Source: a virus
Reading direction: 5' to 3' (one strand)
DNA length: 22,736 bases
IMG/VR virus record: IMGVR_UViG_3300037584_000909
Span: 1-22,736 of that record
The number at the start of each line of letters is the position of its first letter. Within the stretch, counting starts at the first letter, position 1. Under the pieces are notes generated by a model. It saw only the letters and a program-made list of their open reading frames with translations. It made no database searches and had not been told where the DNA came from. Both the position numbers and the translations under genes were made by a program. Below, piece by piece: positions 2,211 to 22,617 of the stretch.

Positions 2211-2973
2211 AATAGGAATATACGACGATTTAACTTACGAAGAGTATGCAAGCATACCAGCTTATAGATCTCACGATCTAACCTCGGCCATAAAATGTCC
2301 GTACAGCTGGAAAAATGCAAAGCCAATGCAACAGACTCCAGCGTTGCTGGAAGGTCGAGTACAACACACCGTGTTCCTGGAATATCATAAGTTCGATGAT
2401 GAGTTCGTAATTCAACCCCAGATTGATCGTAGAACAAAAGCAGGTAAAGAAATGTGGGAAGATTTCCAGGGAACCGTCGGCAATCGCACGGTCATTAGCC
2501 AGGATCTATTTGATCTTTGTATGGAGCGCAGACGTATCATTCGAGATTACATCCCTAGACCCGAACACAAAGTAGAAAGGTCCTTGGTGTTTATGTGGCA
2601 CGATCAACAGTTTAAATGCAGAATGGACTGGTACGACGGTAAAGATGTTTGGGATCTTAAAACATGCCGTGACGCATCACCCAGAGGTTTCAAACAAGCG
2701 ATTAATAATTTTAAATATCACATGCAGGCCGCTTTATATTTGGATGCTTGTAAGGCCTTAGATCTACCAGCGGATAAGTTTAACTTCCTGGCTCAAGCAA
2801 AGACAGATCCATATCCTTATGCGGTTTACTCTATGTCCACCGAGGCTATCGGATATGCAAGGGCCAAGAACGAACAGGCCCTAGCCATGATATTAGAATG
2901 TGAAAAGTCTGGTAAATTTACACCGTTTAATTTAGATGGCCCGCAAACCGTGGAGCTTGGTGATCTTTACTAA
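2200..2973 (+). CDS. PD-(D/E)XK exonuclease-like protein (RecE/DUF3799 type)
   Basis: This 257-aa protein has an AGGAGG site inside the end of the previous gene. It follows the RecE-like phage exonuclease pattern: Y21-A-Y-RSHDLTSA-IKCPYSWK at 20-37, EGRVQHTVFLE at 51-61 with H56, D143 in RMDW, then the catalytic D152-L-K154 in VWDLKTC, and a QAALYLD helix at 176-182. These are the core residues of the PD-(D/E)XK nuclease fold. With the SSB-like protein two genes upstream it suggests a phage recombination or end-resection system, although no RecT/Erf-type annealase is visible in the window. The stop codon overlaps the stop of the convergent gene. Confidence 0.75.
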   Translation: MEFEIGIYDDLTYEEYASIPAYRSHDLTSAIKCPYSWKNAKPMQQTPALLEGRVQHTVFLEYHKFDDEFVIQPQIDRRTKAGKEMWEDFQGTVGNRTVISQDLFDLCMERRRIIRDYIPRPEHKVERSLVFMWHDQQFKCRMDWYDGKDVWDLKTCRDASPRGFKQAINNFKYHMQAALYLDACKALDLPADKFNFLAQAKTDPYPYAVYSMSTEAIGYARAKNEQALAMILECEKSGKFTPFNLDGPQTVELGDLY

Positions 2974-2981
2974 AAAAGATC
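2962..2981. terminator. Bidirectional hairpin spanning two overlapping stop codons
   Basis: GATCTTT (2962-2968) and AAAGATC (2975-2981) form a 7-base stem around a 6-base loop that contains both stop codons (TAA on plus, TAG on minus, sharing CTAA). The stem is AT-rich and lacks a T-run on the plus side, so it would be a weak terminator. Its symmetric place between convergent genes is the main support. Confidence 0.35.
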
Positions 2982-3683
2982 TTGATACAAATTAAATATT
3001 CGGTTTTTGTTACATAACCAAAAGACTAATAAATATCTATCGCCAGATCCTACTGGCAAGCCTTTATGTAAATGCGTAAAGCTGGGAAAGATTAAGGCGT
3101 GGCCTGTTGGCAAAGGTTTGATGGCCCCGTGATTATGAAACTCGGTTCCACCGCCCTCATAATCTCCTGTGTTTAAAGGAACCACAACACTAATATCTGC
3201 GCTTTCGTCGTGGTGCCAGGCTCCTTGTTTCTTATCTTTGAGGTTGTAGTTTGCTATTTGTATGCTTGCTGGATCCCCACAACTCCTTTGCCAAATCGCC
3301 ATAAAGATTGGATTCAACACTGTTTGGGCCACAAACCACATGTTGCGATAAAGGTCTGGACATTGTTGTTGTAATACGATCTCTGGGATCTGCCGCAAAG
3401 TATCTTCATCTTTATTCCCTTCGAACCCTATCTCTTTTCGCATGCTCTCAATCTCTTTGACCAAGAGCTTACAAAACTGTCTGCGGAATAACGGTATTTT
3501 ATAAACGTCTGGATATATTTTTTTGGCCATACGATGCACTGGTGTCTTTGCCATCTTTTCTGTTCCAGCATCGGCATGATACTTGGCTACAATCGGCACC
3601 GTTTCTTGAATCGCATCATAAGTCGCCTGGTTAATCATCCAGTGAGATTGCATGCTTAAAAGGTAGTTTTTTAGCTTATACAT
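2970..3683 (-). CDS. 2-oxoglutarate/Fe(II)-dependent oxygenase (prolyl-4-hydroxylase-like fold)
   Basis: This 237-aa protein has a clear C-terminal 2OG-Fe(II) domain: WHHDES at 156-161 gives the H157-x-D159 pair, DYEGGGTEFHNHG at 174-186 is the usual 'y.GG.tef' strand, and PTGHALIFPSFTHLHKGLPV at 192-211 holds the distal H206, followed by GSGDRYLLVFWL with R216 for 2-oxoglutarate. All core residues are present, so the enzyme is probably active. The substrate (protein, nucleic acid or small molecule) cannot be told from the sequence. The N-terminal 140 residues are helical and unrecognised. No strong ribosome binding site precedes ATG 3683. It is the only gene on this strand between 312 and 4232 and looks separately controlled. 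Confidence 0.8.
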   Translation of the reverse strand: MYKLKNYLLSMQSHWMINQATYDAIQETVPIVAKYHADAGTEKMAKTPVHRMAKKIYPDVYKIPLFRRQFCKLLVKEIESMRKEIGFEGNKDEDTLRQIPEIVLQQQCPDLYRNMWFVAQTVLNPIFMAIWQRSCGDPASIQIANYNLKDKKQGAWHHDESADISVVVPLNTGDYEGGGTEFHNHGAIKPLPTGHALIFPSFTHLHKGLPVGSGDRYLLVFWLCNKNRIFNLYQDLF

Positions 3684-4206: not shown

Positions 4207-4233
4207 GGAGCGTAGTTTGCGGCAAAACGCTCC
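4207..4233. terminator. Hairpin between convergent transcription units
   Basis: GGAGCGT (4207-4213) and ACGCTCC (4227-4233) form a 7-base GC-rich stem. Inside it TTTG (4216-4219) pairs with CAAA (4223-4226) around CGG, with a two-base AG bulge. The element ends right at the stop codon of the minus-strand operon and lies 46 bases after the plus-strand stop at 4161, so it can serve both directions. There is no long T-run. Confidence 0.45.
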
Positions 4234-4487
4234 TACTTTGATCTACTCTTTCTAGCTGTCTTAGTTCTAGCGAAAGATCTATTCTTGCTTTTATGCACTG
4301 CTCTCAAGTTGCCTGGAGAGTTATCCATAGGATTTCCGTTCCTATGGTGGACGTCTAAACTGTCGCCCTTTTTTACTTTACCAGATTTTAAAGCCATACG
4401 CCTAGCGGCGTTTCTGGATGCTCGTTTCTTTTTTTGTTCGGGCCTGGAGTGATAGTTTGCATACTCCTTTTTATAATCCCTGGCCAT
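4233..4487 (-). CDS. HNH endonuclease-like protein
   Basis: This 84-aa protein has a very basic N-terminal helix region (residues 1-40) and an HNH-type core: DVHHRNGNPMDNSPGNLRAVH at 45-65, with H47/H48 as the first histidine(s), N60 as the central Asn, and H65 or N69 at the end. Small proteins of this type are frequent in marine podovirus genomes near the virion operon; roles suggested for HNH proteins include packaging-linked cleavage and homing. It is the last gene of the minus-strand operon and is coupled to the previous gene by a TAATG overlap. The zinc-binding Cys pairs found in larger HNH enzymes are absent. Confidence 0.7.
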   Translation of the reverse strand: MARDYKKEYANYHSRPEQKKKRASRNAARRMALKSGKVKKGDSLDVHHRNGNPMDNSPGNLRAVHKSKNRSFARTKTARKSRSK

Positions 4488-7533: not shown

Positions 7534-8261
7534 TAAAACACCGCCTCGTTAGTTCCGTCTGAGTAAACTGGCTTGCCCTGGAAAGTCTTACCTGTCGGTG
7601 TCCATGTAACCCCATTATCATCGGTAATTGTATTTCCTTGGTTTTTTCTGTAACTACTAAGGATGCCCTCAACATCTATTCCTGGTTGCTCTACAGGTAT
7701 GGTTCCTGTCTCTGTTTGTTGCAACGTCACCTTCGGTTGTTTTGCAACTGCTACAGCTAAAGCATACTCTGGAGTATCCTTCAAAGCAGGGTTTTTTTCA
7801 GCTCTCACTACATAATTTAAAGCAGACGCTAAAGAGCTAGTGCCTTCCATAAAACCGCCCTGCTCTAATGCTAAATCAAATTGTTGTTCTAAATATTCTT
7901 TTGAAAGCTCTAACTGTTGCGCTCTTTTGGCCTCAACTTGCTGATATGCCATCAAAGCCGCCTGTTGTCTAATTTTATCAGCCTCGATTCGTCTTAGCTC
8001 CGCTCCTTCACTAAAAGCGTTAAATCCTGCGGCTAAACCATAACCAATGGACGGTGCTTGGCCACTAGCCGCCTGGGCCGCTAATCCTGCTGATAAATCG
8101 GAGGCTAAATCAAATATGGTTTGTCGTCTAGGCGATGGAAACAACATAGACATTTGTGACATTTCAGCCTGGACATCGGACGCAGTGATTGGATCTGGTT
8201 GCAGACTAACGTACTGCTCAGAAATATCTGCTGGACTAAGGCTGGCTATACCAGTAGACAT
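7533..8261 (-). CDS. Hypothetical virion-operon protein
   Basis: This 242-aa protein has a polar first 40 residues, then an Ala/Gly-rich part (FDLASDLSAGLAAQAASGQ at about 46-64) and a long helix, RRIEADKIRQQAALMAYQQVEAKRAQQLELSKEYLEQQFDLALEQ (~88-132), likely coiled coil. The end contains GVTWTPTGKTFQGKPVYSDGTNEAVF, which looks like a small beta unit. No family is recognised. It is coupled by TAATG to both neighbours. The helical makeup matches proteins of podovirus ejection complexes, but this is an inference. Confidence 0.6.
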   Translation of the reverse strand: MSTGIASLSPADISEQYVSLQPDPITASDVQAEMSQMSMLFPSPRRQTIFDLASDLSAGLAAQAASGQAPSIGYGLAAGFNAFSEGAELRRIEADKIRQQAALMAYQQVEAKRAQQLELSKEYLEQQFDLALEQGGFMEGTSSLASALNYVVRAEKNPALKDTPEYALAVAVAKQPKVTLQQTETGTIPVEQPGIDVEGILSSYRKNQGNTITDDNGVTWTPTGKTFQGKPVYSDGTNEAVF

Positions 8262-9676
8262 TAGACCGCCCTCTGGCCCGGATTCATAAAGTTACCGAAA
8301 GCACCAAACGCCCCTAAACCAGTAGATAGACCTGCTTGTAAAGGACTAGGTGCCGGAGCAAAATCTGTGGTTGTCTGGAATTGTCCAGCTGGCGCCATGC
8401 TTACGAACGGTTGCAACGCTTGATATTGAAGTAATGGTGCCTGCTGTCTTTGTAATTGATTACGTCTTTGTGCATCAAGTCTTTGTTGTTCTAAGGCTTG
8501 TTGTTGCAGGCCAAAACCAGCTAATTGTTGCACGTCGGCGGCTCTAGCGGCCTGTGCTTGAGTGCCAAGTCCAGATAAGTTACCCGCCAAGCCAAACTGT
8601 GATTGTTGTCTTTGTTGACCGATTTGCGACTCTAATCCACCTAAACCACTTAATGCGCCAGCTAATTGTTGAGCACCGGCCATTCTTGAACCTGCTAGAT
8701 TAGCTAAACTACCTGCCGCTGTTCTTGCGGCTTGTTGTTGTCTAGCAAACTCTCCTAAACCTAGTCTCTGAGCCTCAGAGAACCCGCCTGCGCGTATTCC
8801 GCTGATAGCCTCACCTAAACCTCTACCAAGCGCCTCACGACGTTCTGCGGCGCCTAATCTTGCTCTGGATCCAAACGCAGACTCACCGCCTGTGGAGATA
8901 TCTCTAGCTCTCGCTAATATATCTTGTTTGTCGCCTTGCTCCATGATGTCACTTATGGTTTGTTGCACGACTTGTTGTTCAAACGGATTGTAAAATTGAC
9001 CTGTCATTCTTGGATCGTAAGCACCGAGTGTGCCCCGAATAAGTCCTTCGGACTCACCGATTCCAGATAATAAGCTACCTAATCCTGCTCGAGTTGCACC
9101 TAATCCAGCAAACCCAAGTCCTCTTGCTCTTTCTAAACCAGTGTCTAAAGCGCCAACACCTGTTCTAAACGCTTGTTCTGCGTCACTAATAAACCTATCT
9201 TGTATGCCAACACCTTGTCTTGCCAGTTCTTGCGCTCTGAGTTGGTCTGGGGTTAATCCTGCGACTTGTTCTTCTATAACGACAGGTTGGCCCTGCTCAT
9301 CAAAAAATACCTTTTCAGCGGCTCTCATGGCTCCAGGTATAAATCCACCTCTACCATCTAAACCAAATAATAATTGTTTAGTTAAAGGATCTAGTCCTGT
9401 TTCTATTCTTCTTATGCCGGACGCAAAAGGCGCATCATTAGCAACTTGTCTTACAGGTTGTGTCGTTGGTCCTGTTGTAGCCGGGACTGTGCTTACAGGG
9501 GGAGCAACAGGTTCAGAGGTACGTTGCACTGGCATGGCCTGTGCCGGTAATTTTGTTTGCACCGGTGCCTCCGGCATAATCGGTGCTTTAGGTAATTTAG
9601 CAAAGTCTAAATTAAATCTTGGTATCTTGCCGATACCCTCTAAAATATTTATTGGTAATGTAAATCTTGGTTCCAT
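8261..9676 (-). CDS. Gln/Ala/Gly-rich helical virion protein
   Basis: This 471-aa protein has a Pro/Thr-rich, flexible N-terminus (residues 28-75). A conserved-looking core at 219-310 contains AYDPRMTGQFYNPFEQQVV, then AFGSRARLGAAERREAL and GFSEAQRLGLGEFARQQQ. From 310 to 415 there is a Gln/Ala/Leu-rich region with long heptad-like helices. The 'Y.pr.....Y.NPf...V...' plus 'AFGSR' combination recurs in virion proteins of many marine phages, whose exact function is not settled; tail or ejection proteins are the usual guess. The gene follows the 540-aa protein with only a base between stop and start. Confidence 0.55.
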   Translation of the reverse strand: MEPRFTLPINILEGIGKIPRFNLDFAKLPKAPIMPEAPVQTKLPAQAMPVQRTSEPVAPPVSTVPATTGPTTQPVRQVANDAPFASGIRRIETGLDPLTKQLLFGLDGRGGFIPGAMRAAEKVFFDEQGQPVVIEEQVAGLTPDQLRAQELARQGVGIQDRFISDAEQAFRTGVGALDTGLERARGLGFAGLGATRAGLGSLLSGIGESEGLIRGTLGAYDPRMTGQFYNPFEQQVVQQTISDIMEQGDKQDILARARDISTGGESAFGSRARLGAAERREALGRGLGEAISGIRAGGFSEAQRLGLGEFARQQQAARTAAGSLANLAGSRMAGAQQLAGALSGLGGLESQIGQQRQQSQFGLAGNLSGLGTQAQAARAADVQQLAGFGLQQQALEQQRLDAQRRNQLQRQQAPLLQYQALQPFVSMAPAGQFQTTTDFAPAPSPLQAGLSTGLGAFGAFGNFMNPGQRAV

Positions 9677-17472: not shown

Positions 17473-17712
17473 CTATTTTCTGCCGAAAAGGCCCATGTTT
17501 TTCTTGCCATTCATTCTTTTGCCTTTTGACATCATTTTTCCGCCCTTACGCATACCCTTGGCCATCATTTTACCGCCTTTACGCATGCCTTTAGCCATCA
17601 TTTTGCCACCCTTTTTCATGCCTTTAGCTTTGACTTTACCGCCGACTTTGTAGCCTTTTGACTTCATCTTGCCGCCTTTTTTCATGCCTTTGGCTTTCAT
17701 TTTGCTTTTCAT
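17473..17712 (-). CDS. Lys/Met/Gly repeat protein
   Basis: This 79-aa protein is made of six 11-residue units after a short lead. Units start at residues 7, 18, 29, 40, 51 and 62, with consensus A-K-G-M-K/R-K-G-G-K-M-M; the last unit is degenerate. The end is NMGLFGRK. It has an AGGAG site at about nine bases from ATG 17712. About a third of the residues are Lys or Arg, with almost no acidic residue, so it probably binds nucleic acid or an acidic protein surface. It lies just behind the 102-aa protein, which has the same NMGLFGR end. Confidence 0.65.
   Translation of the reverse strand: MKSKMKAKGMKKGGKMKSKGYKVGGKVKAKGMKKGGKMMAKGMRKGGKMMAKGMRKGGKMMSKGKRMNGKKNMGLFGRK
17497..17694 (-). repeat. 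Six tandem 33-base coding repeats
   Basis: The six 11-residue units of the Lys/Met/Gly repeat protein are encoded by exactly 198 bases, six units of 33. The third to fifth units are most alike and the outer units have diverged. Since the unit is a multiple of three, units can be gained or lost by slippage or unequal recombination without breaking the frame. Confidence 0.75.
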
Positions 17713-19690: not shown

Positions 19691-20407
19691 TTATCTTCCT
19701 ACGATAGCTGTAACGTAATCAATAGTCATGGTTTTAGCCGCGGCCTCACCGTTTTGAATACCGAATGATACAGTCAATTCTTCGTTATCTGGTAGATTTG
19801 TGTTTACAACACCTACTGGCTCTGCGTTATTAACAGAGTAATGAACCAATGCTGTATCTGGATCTACAAAGAAAGCAACAGTAACAAAAGTGTCGTCTGC
19901 CATTGTGTGAATAGCAGTTGTATCTGTTGATGTGCTATCTTTTTCAACAATAAAGTCTAGGTTTGTATCACCGTCGTCTTTAATGAAGAAAATACCGTCT
20001 GATACTGCTAATGGAGAAGTATCAGTAATTTGTAGGCCAATAACAAAGTCAGATTGAGTTGCGTCGCTAACTTTAAATCTAGCTGAAAAATAAGCTCTTT
20101 TTGAACCGTCAATTAAAAAAGACTCGCCTTTTAATTGTAAAAAGTCGTTATCGTTATCGCCAGCCGCGTTAGTAAGCAACAGTTGACCACCAGCACCAGA
20201 AGTAATTGCCTCTGTTGCGGATCCTGTTCCTGCCTCGGTTGTTGTTACTGTCCAGTCACCACTGTTGTAGGTCATAAAATCATTGAAATAACCATAGTGT
20301 GTTTGGTCAGAAGGTAAAGGCACAAACATCGGTTGATCTTTTTTTGCCTTGGTTGCAACGGTGTTACCCGCCCATTGTATTTGGTTTTGAAAATGTGGAT
20401 TAGCCAT
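19691..20407 (-). CDS. Virion surface protein with LamG/concanavalin-like look
   Basis: This 238-aa protein starts at ATG 20407 behind a good AAAGGAG site. After a short basic lead it shows the strand series of a jelly-roll, lectin-like fold: HYGYFNDFMTYNSGDWTVTT, GGQLLLTNAAGDNDNDFLQL, GSKRAYFSARFKVSD, DFVIGLQITDTS, VTVAFFVDPDTALVHYSV and TMTIDYVTAIVGR. Such proteins follow the capsid gene in several marine phages and are probably decoration or fibre-like surface proteins. Rich in Asp, Thr and Gly. First gene after the intergenic region 20408-20498. Confidence 0.6.
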   Translation of the reverse strand: MANPHFQNQIQWAGNTVATKAKKDQPMFVPLPSDQTHYGYFNDFMTYNSGDWTVTTTEAGTGSATEAITSGAGGQLLLTNAAGDNDNDFLQLKGESFLIDGSKRAYFSARFKVSDATQSDFVIGLQITDTSPLAVSDGIFFIKDDGDTNLDFIVEKDSTSTDTTAIHTMADDTFVTVAFFVDPDTALVHYSVNNAEPVGVVNTNLPDNEELTVSFGIQNGEAAAKTMTIDYVTAIVGR

Positions 20408-20498: not shown

Positions 20499-20987
20499 TT
20501 ACTTTAGCAAGTGAAGTGAGTCTAAAATATCAAGCGTATCTTTAGGATCTTTGTGCAATATACCAATGCCGCCAGCCTCCTCCCAGTGCTCAATGTTAGA
20601 CTTTTTATCATCGACCAGGACATGGTTTGGCCTAGCAAATATCTTTTTATCTTTACCCTTTAAAGTAGATGATACAACGACGCTCGGACAAACGTATTGT
20701 CTGATCCATTCAGTCTTATCTGCAACCACTAAAGGTCTATTGATTAAACCAGAACAAGTGAGGATCTCCCAGGGCAGGTTAGAATCTTTTACCCAGGCAA
20801 TTAGATCTAACGCCCCTGGCATGTAAGGCAAGTTTCTAAATAACCTTTTGTTAGTAAACTCAACCTTGCGATGATCGTAAGTTTGCTCGTTCCACAAAGG
20901 CCCATTAAGAAAGTCTGGGCCCTGGACACCTGCGACGAAGTCAGCCAAGACTCCGTCCATGTCTAGATAAATTTTACCTATTGCCAC
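20499..20987 (-). CDS. HAD-family 5'(3')-deoxyribonucleotidase-like phosphatase
   Basis: This 162-aa protein starts at GTG 20987, within the TAGTG junction. A longer in-frame reading from 21023 would run through the end of the previous gene and is rejected. Motif I is D9-M-D11-G-V-L at 7-15 (IYLDMDGVLADF), motif II is T77-C-S79 after PWEIL, a Lys follows (K91 or K114), and motif IV is LVDDKK with D126 and D127. This matches NT5C-like deoxyribonucleotidases of the HAD superfamily, which remove phosphate from deoxynucleoside monophosphates. It may take part in nucleotide recycling during infection. It is the last of six genes in the coupled accessory cassette. Confidence 0.75.
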   Translation of the reverse strand: MAIGKIYLDMDGVLADFVAGVQGPDFLNGPLWNEQTYDHRKVEFTNKRLFRNLPYMPGALDLIAWVKDSNLPWEILTCSGLINRPLVVADKTEWIRQYVCPSVVVSSTLKGKDKKIFARPNHVLVDDKKSNIEHWEEAGGIGILHKDPKDTLDILDSLHLLK

Positions 20988-21001
20988 TACGCCACCTCCA
21001 C
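20985..21001 (-). repeat. Conserved SD-stop-start junction block, copy 5
   Basis: On the minus strand GGAGGTGGCG is followed by TAG and by GTG as start of the HAD gene. It is the most diverged of five copies: TAGTG instead of TAATG. The upstream protein ends FVEVA. Confidence 0.8.
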
Positions 21002-21247
21002 AAATTTTTGAGCCCTTTTCCAACCTTCTCCATAAGTAATAGCTTGCTCTGGATCTATAAGAAAACCCTCTGCATCAAGCCACTTACAAAGTTGATTTGG
21101 TGTGCAACCCCAACCTTCACATAAATACATTATTTCCTTATACCACATGACAAAATTACCTTCGCTAACACCCATGTCGCCCTTGTTATAAGGCGGTATA
21201 TAGTAATCACCGTCTAAATCTATTTTTGGTTTAAATACATATTTCAT
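20987..21247 (-). CDS. Unknown cassette protein (86 aa)
   Basis: The sequence begins MKYVFKPKIDLDGDYYIPPY and has many aromatic residues, with GNFVMWYKEIMYLCEGWGCT in the middle and a helix at KRAQKFVEVA at the end. A small alpha/beta protein with two Cys (C57 and C62) and a Gly-Trp-Gly turn; no family recognised. It starts in a TAATG junction and ends in another, with a Shine-Dalgarno inside the end of the previous gene. Its final EVA comes from the shared junction. Confidence 0.65.
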   Translation of the reverse strand: MKYVFKPKIDLDGDYYIPPYNKGDMGVSEGNFVMWYKEIMYLCEGWGCTPNQLCKWLDAEGFLIDPEQAITYGEGWKRAQKFVEVA

Positions 21248-21261
21248 TACGCCACCTCCCT
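21245..21261 (-). repeat. Conserved SD-stop-start junction block, copy 4
   Basis: AGGGAGGTGGCGTAATG on the minus strand: the end of the 76-aa gene (R-E-V-A-stop) with the start of the 86-aa gene inside TAATG. Confidence 0.85.
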
Positions 21262-21477
21262 TGTATCTAAATCATTAACAAAAGCATCAATCATGGATTC
21301 TGCCTCTTTTTTTGTTGAGGTTTCTCCCCAAAACTCTGAACCCAGCTCACCAAATTCATTACCAAAATCATCGCCCCAGTTTTCGTCTGCATATTTACTT
21401 GGCCTCACCACATATACCAACTGGCCGAAATGGTTAGCAGTGCCTATTGTAAAATTGTTGTAATATTCATATTCCAT
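21247..21477 (-). CDS. Unknown acidic cassette protein (76 aa)
   Basis: This 76-aa protein begins MEYEYYNNFTIGTANHFGQL, has an acidic, Gly-rich middle (ENWGDDFGNEFGELGSEFWG), and a helix KKEAESMIDAFVNDLDTREVA at the end. No family is recognised. It looks like a small beta-then-alpha protein, perhaps binding or mimicking a nucleic acid by its acidic face, which is speculation. Both ends are junction blocks of the repeated type. Confidence 0.65.
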   Translation of the reverse strand: MEYEYYNNFTIGTANHFGQLVYVVRPSKYADENWGDDFGNEFGELGSEFWGETSTKKEAESMIDAFVNDLDTREVA

Positions 21478-21491
21478 TACGCCACCTCTCT
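21475..21491 (-). repeat. Conserved SD-stop-start junction block, copy 3
   Basis: AGAGAGGTGGCGTAATG on the minus strand, with one change (GAGAGG for GGGAGG) that weakens the Shine-Dalgarno. It encodes R-E-V-A-stop and the start of the 76-aa gene. Confidence 0.8.
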
Positions 21492-21887
21492 TTGTAATAA
21501 GTCCGCGTTGTGCTTTTTCAAAACATACAAAGCGGCTTGAGCCTTTTCTTTATCATGGTAGAAAATTCTTTTTGTATTTCCGTGCCTTGGATAATCAGCA
21601 AGGGATTTATCTGAATCAAAATCATGCGCCTCTAAAATATTAAGGTATTCAGTAGCATGATAACCAGGTTGGTCTCCATCCATAAAAGTGTGGATCTCTA
21701 AACCCGTCATTAAGTTTGGTAATTTAATACTGTATTTAGGGTATCGTAATATTTTGTCTTTACCAATCGGCTCGTCCGTTTTTTTATCATATTCGTAGTT
21801 ATATGCGTTTTTTACAATCTGTAACTCTAAATTCATAAGCAGATCGTACTCTTCTGAATATTGTTTGCAGTTTTTAAATTTAACCAT
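21477..21887 (-). CDS. Unknown cassette protein (136 aa)
   Basis: This 136-aa protein begins MVKFKNCKQYSEEYDLLMNL and has a helical start, a middle with KYSIKLPNLMTGLEIHTFMD (~51-70), RHGNTKRIFYHDKEKAQAAL and a final helix ending REVA. The HTFMDGDQPGYHATEYLNIL part is acidic and aromatic. No family is recognised, and no catalytic motif stands out. Both ends carry the repeated junction block, so its translation is probably coupled to both neighbours. Confidence 0.65.
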   Translation of the reverse strand: MVKFKNCKQYSEEYDLLMNLELQIVKNAYNYEYDKKTDEPIGKDKILRYPKYSIKLPNLMTGLEIHTFMDGDQPGYHATEYLNILEAHDFDSDKSLADYPRHGNTKRIFYHDKEKAQAALYVLKKHNADLLQREVA

Positions 21888-21901
21888 TACGCCACCTCCT
21901 T
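21885..21901 (-). repeat. Conserved SD-stop-start junction block, copy 2
   Basis: AAGGAGGTGGCGTAATG on the minus strand, identical over 17 bases to copy 1. It is a full Shine-Dalgarno followed by stop and start, and encodes K-E-V-A-stop at the end of the 59-aa gene. Confidence 0.85.
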
Positions 21902-22066
21902 ACAGTTGCATTTTAAATAAACAGTTTTTTCTGGCATTGGATTACCAAAAATATCCTCAAAAGTGATCTTTTTTTTACCAGTGCCTTCGCAATCCTCACA
22001 AAAACCAACGGTTTCAATAGTCGTTAAAGAAACCAGTTTGTCCTCGACATCAATATGAACAGCCAT
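21887..22066 (-). CDS. Small zinc-knuckle-like protein (59 aa)
   Basis: Reading from ATG 22066 gives 59 codons and a TAA at 21887-21889, exactly filling the space between two junction blocks. Residues 22-30 read FCEDCEGTG, a single CxxCxGxG unit like those in the DnaJ zinc-binding domain. The protein ends LKCNCKEVA, so C23, C26, C53 and C55 could together bind one zinc ion. One such knuckle is short for a DnaJ domain; small zinc ribbons in phages often mediate protein or RNA contact. It is too short for routine gene calling and easily missed. Confidence 0.7.
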   Translation of the reverse strand: MAVHIDVEDKLVSLTTIETVGFCEDCEGTGKKKITFEDIFGNPMPEKTVYLKCNCKEVA

Positions 22067-22080
22067 TACGCCACCTCCTT
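22064..22080 (-). repeat. Conserved SD-stop-start junction block, copy 1
   Basis: AAGGAGGTGGCGTAATG on the minus strand. It encodes K-E-V-A-stop at the end of the 139-aa gene and the start of the 59-aa gene, with 7 bases between GGAGG and ATG, a good Shine-Dalgarno spacing. Confidence 0.85.
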
Positions 22081-22485
22081 GTCGTTGTAAATGAAACCAT
22101 CAATATCAAAGTTGTCGATGACAACAGTTTGACCATGTGTTTTGTAAAGAGTGCCCTCGTCCATTGGGCCAAGTGGAACCAAAAACCAGTATTTGTTTTT
22201 GTTGCCGTCATAAATTACGTCGCCACTAGAAGTAGACCTTAAACCCATAACCTCGCCAGTTTTTTTGTTTATCGGCAAATCAACGGTGACTTTAATCCTT
22301 GGATCATAGTCATCGTTGACGATCTTTTTACCGTCATACTCAAACTCTGGGCCCCTAGACCAAGAGCCGTCAATGTTGTTGGTTAATCCAAAAGCCTCTC
22401 TGATTGTATTGACATCAACCTCAGCAACTTTTGTATAACCTTTGGTGTTATCACCAAACTCGTTTGCATGAAATACTTTTATCAT
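22066..22485 (-). CDS. Unknown cassette protein (139 aa), first gene of the array
   Basis: The ATG at 22485 is chosen because a CGGAGG site lies just upstream; a start at 22521 is open but has none and would lie inside the promoter-like region. The 139-aa protein begins MIKVFHANEFGDNTKGYTKV, with a beta-rich remainder (VTVDLPINKKTGEVMGLRST, DVIYDGNKNKYWFLVPLGP, TVVIDNFDIDGFIYNDKEVA). No family is recognised. It is acidic, contains no Cys and resembles a small beta-sandwich. The transcript probably starts at the promoter-like sequence at 22528-22556. Confidence 0.65.
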   Translation of the reverse strand: MIKVFHANEFGDNTKGYTKVAEVDVNTIREAFGLTNNIDGSWSRGPEFEYDGKKIVNDDYDPRIKVTVDLPINKKTGEVMGLRSTSSGDVIYDGNKNKYWFLVPLGPMDEGTLYKTHGQTVVIDNFDIDGFIYNDKEVA

Positions 22486-22527
22486 TTTTCCTCCGTTTTG
22501 ATTATTGAATACATTTCCCATATACCT

Positions 22528-22556
22528 AATATACTAAATATTGCACATATTTACAA
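22528..22556 (-). promoter_or_regulatory. Promoter-like sequence for the accessory cassette
   Basis: On the minus strand TTGTAA (22556-22551) and TATATT (22533-22528) are separated by exactly 17 bases, a good sigma70-type layout. The first 16 bases, TTGTAAATATGTGCAA, match the promoter-like sequence at 3720 in 15 of 16 positions. It sits between the terminator of the capsid gene and the first cassette gene, where a new promoter would be needed. Confidence 0.5.
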
Positions 22557-22591: not shown

Positions 22592-22617
22592 AAAAAAAAG
22601 GGCCCACCAGGGCCCTT
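22592..22617 (-). terminator. Strong intrinsic terminator after the capsid gene
   Basis: On the minus strand AAGGGCCC and GGGCCCTT form an 8-base stem around TGGT, followed directly by a run of T residues. It ends transcription after the probable major capsid gene, as is usual in short-tailed phages where the capsid gene needs a separate control level. Readthrough to the cassette would be partial. Confidence 0.9.

Follow-up and report, generated by a model that had tools for sequence, protein, structure and literature searches.

Whether phage genomes become mosaic by recombination at short boundary sequences, or by random joining followed by selection, is an old question. It is raised here by a row of six small genes in a 22.7-kb virus record, the whole 22,736-nucleotide stretch of which is called the window below. 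The genes encode proteins of 59–162 aa and follow one another without gaps on the minus strand after a terminator-like hairpin. They are linked by five joints, each of which fuses a Shine-Dalgarno, a stop and the next start in nearly the same short sequence (Table 1). The initial annotation read this block as a cassette joint at which single genes are exchanged, with strong, even translational coupling or a common C-terminal protein tag as alternatives.

All five blocks of that annotation were located on the minus strand at the positions it gives, joints 1–5 having 0, 0, 2, 1 and 3 mismatches, respectively, to the 17-mer AAGGAGGTGGCGTAATG. By chance, 0.05 matches to the 17-mer would be expected (shuffled window, up to three mismatches), and five copies were found in none of 100 shuffles. 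The sequence common to the joints is GAGGTGGCGTA(A/G)TG, and the core that is invariant across all five is GAGGTGGCGTARTG. The claim that TAATG is fixed too does not quite hold, since joint 5 reads TAGTG and provides a GTG start. The stop and the next start share one base at each joint of the window, and the Shine-Dalgarno of the next gene lies inside the final codons of the previous one, e.g., AAG GAG GTG GCG TAA. The preceding proteins were said to be forced to end in K/R-E-V-A or V-E-V-A, and the five C-termini are of just these kinds (Table 1). The joint is asymmetric and lacks inverted repeats, and a promoter and terminator scan found neither element at the joints.

Table 1. Coordinates of the array, its joints and other features of the window.
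Feature	Position	Strand	Remarks
Terminator-like hairpin	22598-22617	minus	left array border; terminator scan
Promoter-like site	22528-22556	minus	upstream of array; weak, 9/12; promoter scan
Shine-Dalgarno of LEAD	22490-22494	minus	GGAGG, then AAAA; no block
LEAD	22066-22485	minus	first array gene; 139 aa, ends KEVA
Joint 1	22064-22080	minus	AAGGAGGTGGCGTAATG; Shine-Dalgarno, stop and start
ZnR	21887-22066	minus	59 aa, ends KEVA; CxxC-type cysteines, zinc-ribbon-like by eye
Joint 2	21885-21901	minus	AAGGAGGTGGCGTAATG
w3	21477-21887	minus	136 aa, ends REVA
Joint 3	21475-21491	minus	AGAGAGGTGGCGTAATG
w4	21247-21477	minus	76 aa, ends REVA
Joint 4	21245-21261	minus	AGGGAGGTGGCGTAATG
w5	20987-21247	minus	86 aa, ends VEVA
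Joint 5	20985-21001	minus	GTGGAGGTGGCGTAGTG; GTG start
HAD-type 5'(3')-deoxyribonucleotidase	20499-20987	minus	162 aa; PF06941, E 6.9e-6; phrog_2643, E 1.7e-31
S1	19691-20407	minus	conserved structural-region gene directly 3' of array
Lys/Met/Gly-rich protein	17473-17712	minus	79 aa; 11-residue repeats, 33-nt direct repeats
Small HNH endonuclease	4233-4487	minus	PF13392; end of tail operon
2-oxoglutarate/Fe(II)-oxygenase-like protein	2970-3683	minus	family differs from that of 1443-2210
RecE-like exonuclease VIII	2200-2973	plus	PF12684, E 7.9e-19; phrog_412, E 5.3e-51
2-oxoglutarate/Fe(II)-oxygenase-like protein	1443-2210	plus	family differs from that of 2970-3683
Probable single-strand-binding protein	406-1122	plus	by eye; acidic tail ending NIPF

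The operon that precedes the hairpin has the major capsid gene as its last gene in relatives, where the nucleotidase, too, follows the array as its fixed right border. From S1 onward, gene order is stable in close relatives. In locus L307, which is more distantly related, S1 comes directly after the capsid gene (7919-8821), with neither array nor nucleotidase, a gene order which suggests that the array region as a whole is an insertion. Promoter-like sites such as that upstream of the array are rarer in the region than in the region's shuffles.

LEAD matched no Pfam, PHROG or NCBIfam family, and a fold search with its AlphaFold2 model (pLDDT 81) was without significant match. The same three collections gave almost nothing for the cassettes in general, DUF2958 and LPD29 being found in a few cassettes of relatives; we guess that the array's cassettes serve host takeover or counter-defence, probably as accessory genes. 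ZnR is the cassette family with the widest shuffling. w3 has three relatives (57-58% identity), whose neighbours differ, and w4 has no relative among the loci compared. The gene before w5 differs in each of the window, L124 and L130.

Relatives of LEAD, 35 in number, were retrieved with its protein, and gene ends were counted in relatives retrieved by protein similarity, the motif playing no part in the retrieval. The exact block was present at 79 of 142 array-gene ends and at none of 381 other gene ends; together with the gene ends of the window, this bears out the earlier remark that the rest of the operon does without it. Likewise, an overlap of exactly one base was found at 118 of 142 array junctions versus 106 of 381 junctions elsewhere. 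The 17-mer is not wholly fixed, as the ZnR family mostly keeps AAGGAGG, with VV, VL, VT, VK, MA, AA or AT as final residues. Among joint ends with a last Ala codon, that codon is GCG in 83 of 104, versus 15% of the Ala codons in structural genes. That the block might be these phages' general strong ribosome site was considered and rejected, given its absence from all of the other gene ends. The cultured relatives examined, HTVC023P, HTVC027P, HTVC033P and 023Pt_psg01, also lack the block and use one-base TAATG overlaps without it.

The relatives show extensive swapping of partners at the joints. Considering all loci, LEAD's joint is followed by about 16 different gene families in 20 distinct junctions, and the 3' side of ZnR, with 25 distinct junctions, has about 20 families as downstream partners. 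In L124, for example, a LEAD that is 99% identical ends in the same joint, after which comes a wholly different gene. From zero (L142) to four cassettes (the window and L124) stand between LEAD and the nucleotidase, in differing combinations, and a given cassette recurs with different neighbours on either side. L136 is a mosaic of cassettes from L124, the window and L130, its LEAD and its later cassettes having their best matches in different relatives. In descriptive figures, since the pairs are not independent, and with part of the loci retrieved through the motif itself, block joints with upstream DNA at least 80% identical had unrelated downstream DNA in 127 of 147 pairs (86%), and those with downstream DNA at least 80% identical had unrelated upstream DNA in 64 of 82 pairs; for non-block joints the two counts were 124 of 503 (25%) and 439 of 838 (52%). 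The prediction that gene gain, loss and swap would break at the block thus held in the related genomes compared, and gene content, rather than being fixed while the junctions diverge, varies among relatives.

The breakpoints can be placed within the joint. When the upstream DNA matches, identity drops from 1.0 to about 0.35, the background, right after the ATG; in the mirror profile, with the downstream DNA matching, identity drops just left of the Shine-Dalgarno. Within the joint, the part left of -7 varies with the upstream gene, and position 0, the first base of the start, with the downstream one; the ties of bases -5 to -3 are mixed, to both neighbours. This pattern puts most exchanges in the stretch from about -6 to the start codon, which includes the GCG, a triplet that a ribosome site does not need. 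Some exchanges are visible as simple indels. L138 and L173, with flanks 99/99% identical, differ by two cassettes (540 nt). L142 and L143 (flanks 98/98%) differ by 357 nt and share 16 bases, GGAGGTGGCGTAATGA, while L165 and L164 (98/96%, 302 nt) share 19 bases and L183 and L179 (96/96%, 339 nt) share 17. In total, 17 of 58 distinct colinear indels share at least 13 bases at the breakpoint, and for 16 of these 17 the shared bases are the joint or a close variant. What is seen is modular exchange at the joint: whole units come, go and change order, with breakpoints in the few bases that separate the Shine-Dalgarno from the start.

Exchanges were also seen at poor matches to the block, as with cassette f160, ending in GGGATAGCATAATG, and between L181 and L042, which have ATGA alone in common; the full block is therefore not required. 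The f160 protein (L162:5290-5586, L136:3508-3804) is a DUF2958 protein (PF11171, E 1.6e-25) that ends GIA with a degenerate joint, yet it swaps neighbours as other cassettes do.

Cassette f102, of 173 aa, provides an internal control, as its two ends differ. It was found at 69 places by protein similarity. At its 5' joint, which is mostly block-like, the upstream neighbours at 47 distinct loci fall into 15 clusters. At its 3' end, which is without a Shine-Dalgarno, there are 3 downstream clusters, and the nucleotidase follows in 39 of 45 cases. In L251, L288, L291, L295 and L296 the 3' end of f102 is of another kind, with a Shine-Dalgarno-like stretch; in L251 another gene replaces the nucleotidase, and in the other four f102 is followed by a separate downstream cluster. 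A second control is given by genes that stand first in an operon, where the same genes lack the block. LEAD is preceded by GGAGGAAAAATG in the window, and by the block in L143, where it is internal in an array. The block marks shuffled junctions, not fixed ones.

The cassette-joint reading is thus strongly supported, and we think it probable that the locus is a row of gene cassettes built on one standard joint, exchange taking place through the shared joint. The unit would be one small gene whose final codons double as the Shine-Dalgarno, stop and start overlap of the next, so that an inserted unit would take its ribosome signal from the left neighbour and give one to the right neighbour. Because each unit would supply the next ribosome signal, order could change without breaking translation and with coupling kept. 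Recombination would run through the shared 14-17 bases, perhaps assisted by larger nearby homology or by a phage exonuclease/annealing pathway. The block may be kept because it couples translation well and because matching joints are those that recombine. Both forces may act, selection for coupled translation shaping the joint and the identity of the joints then favouring more exchange.

As for the machinery, the genes for the RecE-like exonuclease and the probable single-strand-binding protein lie close together in the window. The exonuclease, recognised by its family matches, is a possible source of single strands for annealing. The sole family match of the putative binding protein is phrog_862, to which no function is assigned. 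The RecT and ERF annealing families had no match in five partial records, and homogenisation of block variants within contigs, a sign of gene conversion, was not significant (P 0.15).

The most serious rival accepts the cassette array and disputes the recombination step alone. It holds that genes are joined at random by illegitimate recombination and that the survivors are those which keep a Shine-Dalgarno, stop and start, the block being simply the best translational solution. The minimal homology quoted for RecA and Red is about 30 bp (PMC2327257), and the 14-17 bp of the joint fall below it; as exchanges occur at poorly matching joints too, illegitimate joining with selection stays a serious rival, and the failure to find an annealing protein is in its favour. 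Random joining would sit less easily with the near-constant geometry of the one-base overlap, with the conservation of a GCG that no ribosome signal needs, and with the quite different starts of structural genes, both in the same phages and in cultured relatives. We judge it a real possibility, though the less favoured one.

Much less probable is that the block serves translation only, as an optimised signal for coupled initiation or as the binding site of a translational regulator, with the shuffling unrelated to it. As this explanation would have it, AAGGAGGTG has a well-spaced match of nine bases to the anti-Shine-Dalgarno, and genes that are first in an operon have strong Shine-Dalgarno sites as well. 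Yet shuffling and block coincide even across the two ends of f102, a gene that lacks the block in first position has it in internal position, and no RNA hairpin beyond that of shuffled sequence was found around the five joints (z -0.21 to 0.54). Strong, even coupling is not exclusive of the cassette joint and is probably also true.

Selection of the E-V-A end as a protein signal, e.g., a degradation tag, is very unlikely. Variants of the ssrA degradation tag include LVA and AAV, and Ala ends are found without the exact block in 27 of 63 array genes versus 42 of 381 others, often as GIA, KVA or EMA. The ends of ZnR, on the other hand, vary after K-E (VV, VL, VT, VK), GCG is strongly favoured even though GCA and GCT are the commoner codons, and the tag is missing from the nucleotidase and from other genes in that operon. 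The use of GCG far above codon usage, with the variable ZnR ends, indicates that the DNA or RNA sequence is constrained, and not the residues alone; the tag alternative of the initial annotation is accordingly disfavoured. The enrichment of C-terminal Ala where the block is lost, seen in array genes of L121-L157 and L162-L202 and often after Val, Ile or Met, may reflect either degeneration of a former block or selection for the C-terminus itself.

We give as little credence to an integron-like site-specific system in which a recombinase acts on the joint. An ordered array with one gene and one joint copy per unit, and the presence of two array sites in the phage group, are what such a system might produce; the joint, though, is asymmetric, forms no inverted repeat or hairpin and tolerates many variants, and no recombinase was found among the window proteins scanned. 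Tandem duplication of one ancestral gene, with the end alone conserved, found no supporting evidence and appears, at the level of protein sequence, to be ruled out, as the six proteins, of 59-162 aa and with families that have their own relatives, show no mutual similarity apart from their ends (best blastp E 0.33 with the last three residues removed), just as was first noticed.

How far does the joint extend beyond this locus? Between the capsid protein of close relatives and those of Pelagibacter phages HTVC023P and HTVC027P, of 023Pt_psg01 and of DSL-LC04, identity is 59-62%; with a capsid protein from a contig that was binned as Candidatus Pelagibacter it reaches 89%. A second array lies near the primase gene in records of the same phage group. 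Loci L198, L197 and L200 belong to a different phage type, with a different terminase family (phrog_2 versus phrog_38), and ZnR, f102, f96 and f156 are common to the arrays of L198-type phages and of the window's group, at 72-92% DNA identity. All 55 families linked by the block, in 73 loci, belong to a single connected set. The search for the 15-base core that had been recommended found GGAGGTGGCGTAATG in at least 120 stretches of viral contigs. Open frames follow nearly all copies among the listed 15-mer matches, and many single matches may be just good ribosome sites. In cultured phages, ZnR and f102 had no match, and f81 had distant homologues alone, in four phages. In another part of the window, the proteins at the same place as the Lys/Met/Gly-rich repeat protein measure 71 to 123 aa in relatives, so repeat number may vary between phages.

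A wider and more tentative picture, which we hold to be rather doubtful as a whole, is that of a shared marine-phage pool of small accessory genes that use one joint in several lineages and are reshuffled continually by phage-encoded short-homology annealing, an integrase-free analogue of the integron in which the ribosome-binding site is the recombination site. Whatever its range, the joint offers a visible, repeated boundary and a natural control, a cassette that bears the joint at one end and lacks it at the other, and so makes the question of how mosaics arise testable. It also suggests a design rule for interchangeable genes, namely that a gene's own last codons carry the ribosome signal of the next, and it is a search key for mobile accessory genes in marine phages, mostly of no known function.

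Several known systems resemble the array in part. In integron arrays, as here, promoterless single-gene cassettes stand in a row with a repeated joint and vary in order and number. Unlike integron cassettes, those studied here have no attC-like inverted-repeat structure at their joints, share one base with the next cassette and rely on one another for the ribosome signal; no tyrosine integrase was found among the part of the proteins of this partial record scanned with Pfam and PHROGs. The PeSL elements of T4-type phages (Arbiol 2010, Comeau 2014), as summarised in PMC4503421, consist of a promoter and a stem-loop between genes. On that summary, they are like the joint in being a repeated gene-border element that accompanies modular shuffling of small genes, and unlike it in that the joint is a translational one of 14-17 bases within one operon, without promoter or stem-loop. 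For the start-associated sequences (SAS) of cluster K mycobacteriophages, a role in translation and possibly as a recombination target was suggested; their consensus, GGGATAGGAGCCC, precedes start codons and is often accompanied by a 17-bp inverted repeat (PMC3203893). SAS and the joint are both short asymmetric repeats at the starts of unrelated genes. The joint differs in sequence (GAGGTGGCGTARTG), has no 17-bp inverted repeat or hairpin at the five joints, fuses stop and start, and lets the swap be seen directly.

The closest parallel is found in the lambdoid phages, for which, in the account given by PMC3029335 (refs 21, 22), modular exchange by homologous recombination was proposed at short conserved boundary sequences. 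There, as here, a short conserved sequence lies at gene borders with different genes on either side in relatives. In the present arrays, the same sequence recurs at the module borders of relatives (79/142 versus 0/381), and homology breaks at it on both sides, as seen in the identity profiles, pair counts and indels. Unlike in the lambdoid phages, one sequence is repeated at many joints of a single-gene array, lies inside the upstream coding end and doubles as ribosome signal, stop and start. Boundary sequences cannot be found at most mosaic boundaries (PMC3029335), whereas here one can. A literature search, with most subscription literature beyond reach, found no match to the joint sequence and no description of a Shine-Dalgarno/stop/start joint inside a coding sequence with swaps.
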